DNA from: Chrysophaeum taylorii
Taxonomy: Eukaryota; Sar; Pelagophyceae; Pelagomonadales; Pelagomonadaceae
Length of the DNA: 64,000 bases
Assembly: GCA_029834535.1 (NCBI GenBank)
Contig: JAQMWT010000330.1
Coordinates: forward strand, 310,001-374,000
Direction of reading: 5' to 3'
Numbering within the stretch: position 1 is the stretch's first letter; each line of letters opens with the position of its first letter. Below are positions 19,106-25,100 of this stretch, one piece after another. The notes under the pieces are model-generated. The model saw only the letters and a program-made list of their open reading frames with translations. It was not told the origin of the DNA and did no database searches. Both the position numbers and the translations under genes were made by a program.

Positions 19106-22100
19106 ATGATGCTCGAGGGGCAGCAGCAGCAGCATCATCATCGATCGGGAGGGGGTGCGAAGGGAACGACGACGACGTCGTCGTGGGGCGGATCGGTCAA
19201 GTCGACACAATCCCGGAGCTCTGTGTTCTTCACGCGCAAAAACTATGGCGACGACAAGGCGACGAGCTGCTGGCGTCGGCTGATGGAGCTGGTGCAGAGA
19301 CACGACTTGAGCGCGAGAGAGCTCGTCGCGCAGTGGGGATGCGAGAAGGCGACCATGAGTTACTCGGAGTTCATGCGGGGTCTAGTGGCTGTCCTAGGTT
19401 CGAACTCGACCGCGTTTACGCACTCGGAACGCAAGCGGCTGTTCGAGTCTTTGAAACCGAATCGCGACGGCCGGGTCGAGCTGGACGAGTTCACGCGGAG
19501 GCTGCTGGCGGCCGAGGCGCGACTGGCCACGACGACGCCGGTCGTGGTGGTTCCGTCGCAGCCGCCGGGGACCGCCGAGTTTGCGTCATTTTCGCCGCCG
19601 CAGAGTCGAGCTCCGGAGTCGGAGGTTTCGACGGAGACTGCCCCGCGGCTATCTCGGTCGTCGGCGCGCGAGCTCCGGATGCGATATCAACGCGAGAGGC
19701 TCTTGGCGGCGAACCTCGCGTTCCGAACGGCCATGTTGGACCAGCGACCGCTGCTGTGCTGTCGCATGGCCGACGACGACGAACCGCGCGGCGACGACGC
19801 GGCGTCGCCCGAGGTGGTCTCCGAGACGGCGGTGGTCGTAGGGGGCTACGAGATCTCGCACAACGCGCTCATTTGGGACTCGCCCCAGGCGGCCCCGGCG
19901 ACCATCGCCGCGGAGCTCGGCGTTGCCCTCGGCGCCCCGGTGCACGGCGTCTCCGGGAGCATCGTGAGCTACGGCGAGACGACGCCGCTCGTCTTCGATT
20001 TCGCGTCCGGGCTCGCGTGGGAGGCCGTGCGCCGCGTCTACGCCGAGATCGCGCGCGTCACAAACGTCAAGGATGACCCCGAGACGCAGCAGAAACCGCC
20101 ATTAGTTGCGATTTCGTTCGAGAAGCACGGGCTTCTCGCTAAGCGCCAGCAGTGGTTGACGTTCCGCGAAGACGTCGACGTCGAGACGGCCGTCGAGCAA
20201 GCGAGACGGCACGCGGCGCCGCTCGTAATTGACGCCGACGACGCCGCCGCGACGACGCTCGTCGTTAGACTCAGAGTCGAGGATCGGGGGGAGGCGCGCG
20301 CTATTGGCGAGTTGCGTCTCGTTCGCGCGTCGCCGTCGGAATTCGACGTTCTCGACGTCGACGACGCAGACGCGTGGTTCCGGGCACCCGGCGGGGACTC
20401 GGACGACCGTCGGCCGCTCAGCTCGTGCGTCGCCGCCGAGGACCAGGCTTTCGTGTACTGCGTCGCGCATCCACGCGAGCCAGTCGTGGCCGCGCAGCTC
20501 GTGGAAGTGGGCCGGCGGCGCTCGACGGAATCCGGGTCGCGGGCGCGCCACGACCACCGCCAACGACCCCGAAGCCACCGTCGCGCTCCGGAATCGGCGC
20601 TGCCGTTGGAAGTGCTGCGCGAGCGCAAGGCGTCGTGGAGCCGGCAAAAGCAACGCGAGGCGACGCGCCAGCCGTCGATCATCGACGCGATCACGACCCA
20701 GGCCAAGCGCGTGGCCGAACTCGACGGCCGGCTTCGAAGAAGGCCAGAGGAGGCGGAGGACGAGGTCGAGAGAGATTTTTTGTGCGCGAGCAGCGCGGAG
20801 GAGACCGCGCGCATCGCGCGGGCATGCAAACGGCAGCGTCTCGTGGCGTGGGAGCGGGCCTCGCGGCTGCAGGCAGCGCTAGGTCGGATCCAAGTGGTTT
20901 GCCGGATTAGGCCCCTCCTCGCCGACGACCGCGACCGTGGTCCCCCCCCAGAACTCAAGCAGCGTCTGCGCGGGAAGCAGTCGACCTTTGTCAAGCGCGG
21001 CGGCAAGGGCCGACACGTCGTGATCAACCTAGACGGGCACAAGTTCGCCAGCAAGTCGCGGATGTTTGAGTTCGACGACGTGTGGGATGCGCACACGTCG
21101 CAGGAGGAGGTTTTCGAGAGCGTCGAGAACCTCGCTAACGATGCTCTTTGCGGCCGCACGGCGTCCGTCTTCGCGTACGGCTGCACCGGGGGAGGCAAGT
21201 CGTACACGGTCGTCGGCGATCTCCACTGCCACCCGCCGCGGCTCGGCATTGCCTTCCAATCGGTTGAACTCCTGCTCGCGACGCTCCGGCAGCAGAACGC
21301 GTCTGGAACCAACGACGCCCAGCAGCAGTGCGTCGTGCTGTCGATGGTCGAGGTCCACAACGAGGACGTCTACGACCTGCTCAAGGACGACGACTGCTGG
21401 GCGTGTAGTCAGGACGTGATGTCGTCTCGGGCGACGACGCCAGAAAAAATGTGCCTGTACTCCTCGCCCCCCAGCGCCAGCCGCTCGCAGATTTCGACCC
21501 TCAACGAGACGGGATCGTGCATCTCCGACGACGCGCCGTCGAGCATCTCGTTCCAGGCGAGCGAGAACTGGGGACGGCGGCGTCGAACCGAAGGCGGCGG
21601 CGGCACTTCCTCGCGGGGCGAGAAGATCAAGCTTGACGTCCGGCTCGGCCCTGGTGGCAAGGCGCACATCCCCGAGCTCACGCGACTCTCGATCGAGGAC
21701 ATGGGGGTGTTCGTCCGCGTCTTCGAGGCAGGAAACCGCAGACGCGCCACGACTGCCACGCTCCTCAACGACGTTTCGTCGCGAAGCCACGTTGTCGTGA
21801 TGGTCGAGGCACCCTCGGGCGGACGACTCTGCCTCGTCGACCTCGCTGGGTGTGAGCGCGTCGCCAAGTCGGGCGCCTCGGGCGACGCCCTCAAGGAAGC
21901 GACCTGCATCAACAAGTCCCTCTCGGCCCTTGGAGGTGAGTGTTGTTGTTTGATGCGGCGCGTCAACTTTTGTTCTCGTTGTGTCCGGACGACGACGACG
22001 ACGACGGAAGTTGTGCTTGCTGCGCGCGTCTCTCTGTTTTTTTGCTCGCCCGCGAAGAATACCTCTAATTTTTTGGTTAACAGATTGCTTCGCGGAAGAT

Positions 22101-25100
22101 CACCAACTCCTAACGAATCGTGGTTTTTTGTCCCTCGACGACGTGCTGACATGCCAGGACGACGATGACCTGTTGTTCGCCGGCTACGATCCGGAGTCGA
22201 GGGCAATCGTGTACGAAAAGCCGACGCGAATCGTCGTAAGTGTCCCTCCGGCATAATCATCATCATCATCATCATCATCTATGTTGTTGTTGTTGTTGTT
22301 GTTGTTGTTGTTGCGGGCAAAAAAAACTCACGAGCCCGTCCCCAGGTCCGCGAGTCGGCAACGCGAGACATGATCGAGTTCGCTGTCGCCAATGATGATA
22401 ATGATGGACCGAGTCCGCCACTGCACCTCAAGTCCCCCCTCCAGACCCCGCGGTTCCCAACGATTGAATTTTTGAAAACCAACGGCGTCCAAGACGCCGC
22501 AACGCCGACGAATCAAGGAACCGCTGGTTTGGTGATCCGCGCGGTCGATCTCATGACGCGCGACCTTCGAGCGACGCTCGGGACATCGCTGGTGACGCCG
22601 TCGGAGCAAGTGTTCGCGCTGCCCTTGGTGTTGGGCGCTCGGCCCGAGAAGAAGATGAAAAAGAAGAAGAAGAAGAAGAAGAATAACGCCAACGACGCGC
22701 GTGCGGTCGTCGTCGTCGCATCGGCGCCGCACGTTCTCGTGGTCGCGCGCGTGGCGTCTGCGTCTACGAGCGGCGACGGCCCGCCGCGGTGTTTCACCGA
22801 GGACCACCAGCTCCTCACGAACCGCGGCTTCCTATCGTTCGACCGCGTGCTCGAGGCAATCGAACATCTCGTTTTCGCAAACTACGACCCGATAAAAAAG
22901 GAAATCATATACGAGCACGCGACGGCTCTTGCTCTGCAGAGCGAGACGCAAAGCTGCTGCGGAAGCGAGTTCGCGCGCGGGCACGAGGTGTCCCCGGGTG
23001 GTACTGATTCGTCGTCCAGTCAAACGAGGCGCGCGGTCGTCGCCGACTCGCGGGCCGCGCAACGCAGGGCCTACAGCTCTGCAGTTCCCAATAATGGGCA
23101 AAACAGCGACGAAGCATTTTTCTTCTTCGACGACGCCGGATCAGGCGACGAAGACGCCGCGCAATCCAGAACGCAGCGGAATTGTCTGTCTCTCGTCGCG
23201 ACGGAGCAGCACGACATGTACGTTCGGTCCGTTCAGAGCTCTAGCGACGCGGGCTTCAGCAAGATCCGTGCTCTTGACTTGCTCGGCGAGGACGGCTTGG
23301 CGATGCTCGCGAACGCCGCGAACGGCGTCCACAACCCGCCGGAATCGGCGACGATCGATGCCATCCTCAATTCGCTCGGCCTCGACTCCGAGGTGAAGCG
23401 ATTGGCTTTCCTTCGGCTCTATGGCTTCTGGCTCGGAGATGGATCACTGTGCGGATCGCTCGCAAAGCCCTCGCCTGCCATTCTCTTTTCCCAGCGAAAA
23501 CAGACGCGCGTCGACTTCATCGTCGCCGCTTGCGACGAAGCGGGTTTGCGACGCGACGTCTCCTATTCCGTGTTGCGCTCCAACACGAAAGACGAGGTTA
23601 TTATTCGCATCACCGAGCCGCGATGGATACGTCTCTTCTTCTTCTTTGAAGAAGAAGAATACTACGGCACCCAGAGCGGGGCGTCGAACAAAAATAAGAT
23701 AGACGCCACGGCGCAATCTTCGATTCTCGAATGGATCGTGGACGCGCAGCGCCCCTCGGCGCGTGCCACTATCACAGAAGAGTCGTCCAGGCCTTGGAAA
23801 AAAGAAGAAGAAGCTTCAGTCTCGGGTGCCCAGTTGCCTCAACCAAACACTATATTGTGCGAGGCGCATCAAACGACGACGACGAAGAGACGTCGTAAAG
23901 AAATCGTCGTCGTCGCGAACGGCAAAGAACGGATAGTCGACGCCGTGGATACAACAGCCCTGATCTTTCTGCACGAGTTGCTTGGTGAAGTCGATGCGTC
24001 GCGGGTCTTGTCGCTCCTCGAGCACGAGCCCGTAAATTTTTGGTCCGATGTCAAGGAGCTCGTAGTTGGCCGACTCCGAGATCTTAACCTCGCGACACCC
24101 TACAACAGGAACATTGTGACGGCCCTCGTTGTGTCATACCACATTTTCCGGACAGAGAGGCTGCTTCAAACAACAAAGAAGAACTTGGCCGACGTTGCCG
24201 CAATTTTTCTCCCAGAATTCTCGATTCTCGACCAACAACGCTGCCGGTTCGACTTGGCGACGGCACTCGGCGAGGTCGAACGACCGGAGACCAGAGACCT
24301 TCCGTGGGATACAAAAAAGACGACATTCACGGCCCAATCCCCACTGGCGAAGGACGGAAGCATCACCATCATCGTCAAACCCGAAAAAAGTTTCTTTTGG
24401 TGGACGTACGAGCTGTCGGTACGTTTTGTTCGCGCGATCCTGCTCGGGCTCCGCCTTGCCACCAATGGCGGCAGCGAGGATGCTGCCAGAAATAATGAGA
24501 GCATTATCTTCACCGAGTCCGCGCGCTTTCGCGATCAGCTTGTCCAAATCTGTCTACACGGGGGCTACTGCGTCCGGTTCGAGGCGGTTGATCATCGCGG
24601 CAACCGCCGAGCCCGGCTGCTCGATGGCACGATGATGGACCACACCTTCACTAATCACGACTGGATGGTCGCATACACCGACTGGGCTGGCGCCGCCGAG
24701 CCCAAGCTGAAAAAATCCACCGACATCCGCCGAGTGCGCTACACCGGCCGCGCGTGGTGTGCTACGATGCCGCACGGCTTCGTCGTCGTGCGCCGCGCGT
24801 TCAAAAACGGCGAGGGCGAGGTGGTCAGAGCCGGCGTGCCGACGATTCAAGGCAATTGCTTCGAGGCCATCGACAAGCGGCGGACGCACGTGCCATATCG
24901 CAATTCAAAGCTCACGTTTATGCTCCAGGACGTGATCGGTGGGCCCGCGAGCCGGTGTCTCTTTGTTTTCGCGGCGAGCCCGGCTTGGGCGACAGTGCCC
25001 GAGACCCTGTCATCGTTCAAGTTCGCGGCGCGGATGAGCTCGATCCAGCTGGACGGCGAGCTGCTGAGCGACAAGCAGAAACAGCTCGACGCAATCTTGA

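Follow-up and report, generated by a model that had tools for sequence, protein, structure and literature searches.

The window, a 64,000-nucleotide stretch of the Chrysophaeum taylorii genome (its position 1 is C330:310001), carries on its forward strand a kinesin gene whose motor domain is split by a long insert that is probably an intein. The host motor is kinesin-14-like and is interrupted between SLSALGD and CFEAI. The features of the gene, its flanking host parts (exteins), and the putative intein are listed below by window position. Alignment A1 covers the C-terminal parts of the 13 copies of the intein family found in this genome, and A2 covers the N-terminal parts of 11 of these 13.

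19070-27073, forward strand: kinesin gene, modelled with three exons; the open frame starts at 19070.
19070-21935, forward strand: exon 1, the N-extein, with a kinesin motor match (PF00225, E = 2.6e-45) and ending in SLSALG.
21936-22083, forward strand: spliceosomal intron 1 (GTGAGT...CAG), ending 2 nucleotides before the first intein codon.
22086-22235, forward strand: intein block A, copy 1 (CFAEDHQLLTNRGFL), with the codon of the first cysteine (C1) at 22086-22088.
22236-22345, forward strand: spliceosomal intron 2 (GTAAGT...CAG), inside the intein, holding (TGT)n and lying 50 codons into the insert.
22346-22789, forward strand: rest of an extra N-terminal splicing half, with a weak block-B-like ASAPH (SxxH) read by eye.
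22790-23233, forward strand: second N-terminal splicing half, from block A (CFTEDHQLLTNRGFL) to block B TEQH (Thr codon at 23201, His codon at 23210), as placed by A2.
23417-23449, forward strand: LAGLIDADG motif 1, LYGFWLGDGSL, with its acidic residue kept; the region is conserved in alignment A3.
24440-24466, forward strand: LAGLIDADG motif 2, LLGLRLATN, with its acidic residue lost (Thr), as read by eye in A1.
24752-24796, forward strand: block F-like stretch (RAWCATMPHGFVVVRR), with a Trp-Cys pair that is invariant in 13/13 copies.
24833-24859, forward strand: block G, VPTIQGN followed by the +1 Cys; the last intein codon (Asn) is 24854-24856 and the +1 Cys codon is 24857-24859.
24857-27073, forward strand: C-extein, beginning CFEAIDKRRTHVPYRNSKLT, with the rest of the motor (PF00225, E = 1.3e-12), a C2 domain (PF00168, E = 2.2e-6), and a tail of 9-bp repeats.

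The N-extein keeps motifs that we take to be the P-loop (GCTGGGKS), switch I (SSRSH), and switch II (DLAGCE), and the insertion point lies within the helix after switch II, presumably alpha4. The Pfam kinesin match stops at profile position 263 (C330:331629-331934, profile positions 150-263) and restarts at the same position (C330:334851-335045, positions 263-327). When codons 22086-24856 are taken out, the protein aligns to KIFC3 without a gap across the junction, and the spliced motor matches PF00225 with E = 8.2e-68. The exact restoration of kinesin spacing, claimed in the initial annotation of this DNA from its letters alone, is thus borne out, as is the canonical GT-AG intron placed directly before a cysteine-initiated block. 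The initial reading with a single intron has to be given up, because the frame stops at 22254 unless intron 2 is also removed, which leaves an insert of 887 amino acids. Nor did that reading include the additional N-terminal half or the other family members. Both introns found in the kinesin gene lie at or within the insert. An N-terminal EF-hand match in the kinesin frame is weak (E = 0.048, below the cut-off), and at the other end a 9-bp unit repeated 34.6 times (26752-27062) encodes a DDADDAD-type acidic tail that closes the frame.

The nuclear setting first assumed for the gene agrees with 60 kinesin-matching stretches in the assembly, not all of them separate genes, and with genes for a cap methyltransferase and a nucleotide-sugar transporter in the window. 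At the +1 position, 12 of the 13 distinct intein-free kinesins compared have valine and one (L056) has cysteine. The +1 Cys can therefore be regarded only in part as a native kinesin residue. Since kinesins mostly have valine there, it may have come with the intein, although the intein-free L056 also has cysteine.

Over 2.5 kb from 22346, the intein frame has no stop codon, compared with 6-29 in the other five frames. Third-position GC content is 0.70-0.76 in the insert, 0.82-0.83 in the exteins, and 0.39 and 0.53 in the two introns. Inteins in general start with cysteine, end in asparagine or glutamine, and sit at conserved sites. The insert combines exact restoration of its host, a motor domain with P-loop and switches, with a nucleophile at position 1, a TxxH block B, and a terminal residue of the Asn/Gln class before a +1 residue of the Cys/Ser/Thr class. 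Of the catalytic positions sought, only the penultimate His is absent. Among the intein-type blocks originally proposed, the general anatomy, the Gly-Asn end, the +1 Cys, and LAGLIDADG motif 1 hold, and motif 2 has lost its acid; the homing endonuclease of the window copy is probably dead. The extra N-terminal half, of 198 amino acids, stands ahead of a complete intein.

Genome searches covered the assembly of 70.8 Mb in 697 contigs with three copies as queries. Only the best candidates were considered, such that the counts are lower bounds. At least 13 family copies are present, and the same 13 were recovered from each query. Besides these, two queries recovered a degenerate relic on C552, and the third gave two rows at chance level (E = 0.8 and 3.8). 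The insertion sites are as follows, with a slash marking the place of the intein and the residue behind it being +1.

Kinesin-14 of the window: SLSALGD/C.
Kinesin-8 on C110: SLLTLGN/C.
Paralogous dynein heavy chains on C183 and C111, two inteins each: QVLVFN/C and GAWG/C.
Third dynein, on C138, two inteins: HMRK/C and CVVFN/C.
CDC27: SSVLH/C, with a mini-intein of 220 amino acids.
UBR-box E3 ligase: GGCCD/C.
PP5: SAPNY/C.
Channel/ankyrin protein on C24, two inteins in one frame of 3165 amino acids: ADVA/C and ADPN/S.

Microtubule motors thus hold 8/13 copies, six of them in three dynein heavy chains; the best match of the C183 dynein is DYNC2H1. In A1, the terminal Asn is found in 13/13 copies and the +1 residue is Cys in 12 and Ser in one. 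C1 and the TxxH residues (T138 and H141) are invariant in the 11 copies of A2, and the two copies omitted from it, in which an intron splits the N part, also show C and TQDH. Junctions were compared with PDB homologues at seven sites (kinesin-14, dynein-2 twice, PP5, CDC27, UBR, and kinesin-8) and are gap-free at all of them; the C111, third dynein, and channel sites lie outside this comparison. In CDC27, PP5, and UBR, extein, intein, and extein follow one another in one open frame. Both LAGLIDADG acids, as judged by eye, are clearly kept only in the kinesin-8 copy, with the UBR copy ambiguous in motif 2. The MCM genes of this genome look empty, as the matches flanking the site abut in three of the four and are 94 nucleotides apart in the fourth. 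Introns ending 1-2 nucleotides before C1 occur at two independent sites. One is that of the window kinesin, with two bases in between; the other is that of the b copies on C183 and C111, where the introns of the two dynein paralogues (L040 6206-6455 and L044 6459-6688) stop one base short of the first intein codon. Speculatively, such introns may be relics of trimming after imprecise insertions.

Relatives were found in at least 112 proteins (3, 17, and 96 matches from searches with about 8000 scored candidates each). Hosts include MCM helicases (GIC/CIDEFDK), dynein (P0007 and P0017), RPB2 (P0009 and P0011), a DNA polymerase with three copies, kinases, helicases, Elongator, topoisomerase, and many more, and the named sources include Coemansia, Geranomyces, and Xylographa. 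Of the 112 relatives, 108 match the C-part profile and 109 match that of the N part. Cys stands at model position 1 in all 112 N matches that extend to it. Among 118 C matches, 109 reach the end and nine stop early; the last residue is Asn in 84 and Gln in 25, followed by Cys in 98, Ser in 10, and Val in one, such that 108/109 show Asn/Gln and then Cys/Ser. These fractions are upper estimates, since residues that fit make it somewhat more likely for a match to reach the end. By a crude pattern that left motif 1 unreadable in 18 and motif 2 in 32, an acid is present in both LAGLIDADG motifs of 31/102 paired inteins. P0022, an Xrn-type exonuclease, holds a family intein at about residues 791-1324, a classical intein upstream within residues 8-626 (TIGR01445 and TIGR01443 above cut-off), and a classical-looking intein N part downstream of the family intein. 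Matches of the P0003 type place the family in very many unrelated proteins with shorter branches between copies, and their eukaryotic source or sources are possibly genomes in active intein expansion. A viral origin was rejected: IMG/VR, scanned with P0003 and with alignments of the C part, the N part, and the whole intein, yielded no relative, nor did prokaryotic species genomes in one N-part scan, all of these scans using short peptide patterns, which distant relatives could escape.

The two block-A copies of the window intein, at 22086 and 22790, share 46% identity over 72 amino acids. Over block A, copy 1 is nearest to one of the channel copies (61%, against 47% to copy 2), which rules out the second N-terminal half as a recent duplicate of the first. 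Two relatives, P0075 and the assembled MMETSP transcript P0005 (MCM), hold complete tandem inteins placed back to back, with the +1 Cys of the first serving as C1 of the second, whereas the window keeps only the N-terminal half of the first. The simplest history, judging from these relatives, would therefore be a former tandem pair whose first member lost its C-terminal half. A FastTree phylogeny of 114 inteins (251 columns, with the window copy entered as its second N-terminal half and many deep nodes weakly supported) gave terminal branches of about 0.6-1.2 for nine C. taylorii copies and short ones only for the four dynein copies of C183 and C111; P0007, with an N match beginning only at position 2 of the model, was excluded for that reason. 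The long branches rule out a recent burst in this genome.

Several findings weigh against an intein. The initial annotation had made a failure of intein profiles the ground for abandoning its reading, and Pfam and NCBIfam indeed gave no intein, Hint, or endonuclease match to the 887-amino-acid insert, the sole row being at chance level (Pfam, E = 0.6). Profiles of the family matched no intein in PDB. Comparisons by hhalign with six pieces of classical inteins taken from relatives, four of them N parts and two C parts, were not significant. The highest probability was 8.7%, over 14 columns (E = 0.0039 for a single comparison); the N parts scored higher than their shuffled versions, which gave 0.1-0.2%, and the C parts scored about as their shuffles did. 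In addition, the penultimate residue is Gly in 12/13 C. taylorii copies instead of the common His, P0098 ends misfittingly in Asn then Val, and the frame of dynein intein a is broken by a stop codon at one shared position in C183 and C111, which is either an unrecognized intron or damage. Finally, the starting cysteine of the window copy is ambiguous because two N-terminal halves stand in tandem, and use of the second would leave a 198-amino-acid insert in the motor. On the endonuclease side, Pfam LAGLIDADG_3 is weak in 3/13 C. taylorii C parts (best E = 0.0049); in favor of an intein, it passes its cut-off in P0022, P0009, and P0042, where its best stretch falls within an intein of the window copy's family. 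Because curated profiles fail, the identification as an intein rests on the family grammar. The lack of a profile match is overruled as a refutation solely because this grammar, as read from the sequences, is so strict. On balance, we put the probability at about 85% that the insert is an intein that excises itself after translation and belongs to a divergent, LAGLIDADG-associated family of eukaryotic nuclear genes.

The whole stretch could instead be removed from the RNA as one 2.9-kb intron with its donor at 21936 and its acceptor before 24853, where an AG would keep the frame. However, such removal leaves SLSALGGNCFEAI, which is one residue too many compared with KIFC3. Three hosts are read straight through, and the MCM transcript P0005 retains its inteins; this transcript may be incompletely spliced or chimeric, and its last ten residues do not resemble MCM. 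Furthermore, the ratio of nonsynonymous to synonymous substitution rates (dN/dS) between C183 and C111 is 0.25-0.31 in four intein splicing parts, 0.40 in both endonuclease parts, and 0.02-0.11 in three extein parts. In this one paralogous dynein pair, at two intein sites, the inteins are under purifying selection. Intein values of 0.25-0.40, which point to selection on sister inteins at the protein level, would not be expected of a stretch removed as RNA. The large intron is very improbable.

Under the intein interpretation, the insert would be transcribed and translated in frame within the kinesin. C1 would then attack the bond between SLSALGD and Cys, the +1 Cys would take over the N-extein, and the terminal Asn would cyclise, joining SLSALGD to CFEAI. 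Cysteine attack, transfer to the +1 Cys, and Asn cyclisation are standard intein chemistry. A working motor would need C1 of the first N-terminal half to act with the C-terminal half of the second intein. Hint domains elsewhere can cleave without ligating, and ligation in the window copy is itself predicted from sequence, such that an autoprocessing domain that only cleaves is conceivable. It is highly unlikely given the ligation-type +1 nucleophile in 13/13 C. taylorii copies and in 108/109 end-reaching C matches of the relatives, and a domain that cleaved without ligating would break apart the cores of the motor, dynein AAA1, and PP5. Somewhat less improbable, and still doubtful, is a decaying intein with slow or lost splicing in a non-functional kinesin paralogue. 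The tandem N-terminal halves, the long low-complexity linkers, and the loss of endonuclease motif 2 fit such decay, as does the relic on C552 (L051 5495-5702), which derives from the end of this intein and the kinesin stretch behind it (208 bp, 82% identical to the window). This explanation is opposed by the 2.5-kb open frame, by the intact C1, TxxH, Trp-Cys, Asn, and +1 Cys, and by a motor with P-loop and both switches intact.

The initial annotation further held that the motor is dead until splicing, which would act as an activation switch. Inactivity before splicing is a reasonable inference, as the insert splits the helix after switch II. A regulated switch appears unlikely: nothing points to regulation, no regulatory feature was seen in the sequence, the remaining hosts (CDC27, PP5, UBR, and the channel) are unrelated, and decay is apparent in most of the endonucleases, as would be the case for passengers. 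In its favor are the location of 8/13 copies in microtubule motors and the conditional splicing described for other inteins in the available part of PMC8557812. With 13 copies in unrelated genes and endonucleases mostly decayed, self-splicing passengers are the more fitting description. The window copy, its endonuclease being probably dead, would persist as such a passenger at a site that the motor needs.

A broader proposal, for which we see about even odds, is that a eukaryote-wide intein family invisible to profiles moves by ectopic insertion before Cys codons among unrelated nuclear genes. It would have at least 13 copies here, mostly in microtubule motors, and possibly many in other genomes, with some in tandem stacks, such that the window kinesin could splice through a chimera of the N-terminal half of one intein and the C-terminal half of another. 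Nuclear-gene inteins have so far been held to be scarce, limited to few hosts, and almost unable to colonize new sites. If the proposal is true, a family in kinesin, dynein, MCM, kinases, phosphatase, and ubiquitin ligase, with many copies in one genome, would open the ectopic spread of inteins to direct tests. Protist gene models at intein sites would be easily misread, and new Cys-dependent splicing domains would become available for protein engineering. Elsewhere in the window, positions 7349-18691 on the reverse strand form one uninterrupted frame, 3781 codons long, that encodes a REJ domain (PF02010, E = 1.8e-40).

No earlier description of inteins in kinesin or dynein motors appears to exist. 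In agreement with the initial statement that no kinesin intein was known, a search of titles and abstract beginnings, with subscription journals and preprints outside its reach, found no paper on inteins in kinesin, dynein heavy chain, stramenopiles, algae, or protists with these hosts or copy numbers. The word intein is absent from the main text of the C. taylorii genome paper (PMC10366177), and the accessible portions of PMC8778642, PMC12702839, and PMC7765530 contain nothing on these intein hosts. In the available sections of two further sources, eukaryotic inteins are called scarce, with a fungus that has three being cited (Green et al. 2018; PMC5784728), and more than one intein per eukaryotic species is called rare (a 2023 genome paper, PMC10849329). 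Like the nuclear inteins of Prp8, VMA1, and RNA polymerase covered in those sections (PMC5784728), the family described here occupies conserved nuclear host genes, and its relatives also occur in RPB2. It differs from them in its C. taylorii hosts (kinesins, dyneins, PP5, CDC27, UBR, and a channel), in its 13 copies in one genome, and in not being recognized by Pfam intein models. Goodwin et al. (2006; PMC1635734) likewise describe several non-allelic RNA polymerase inteins at conserved sites of related eukaryotic genes. In the part of that paper available, ectopic movement is raised for two cases and movement to new sites is considered very rare, whereas the C. taylorii family has struck unrelated genes many times.

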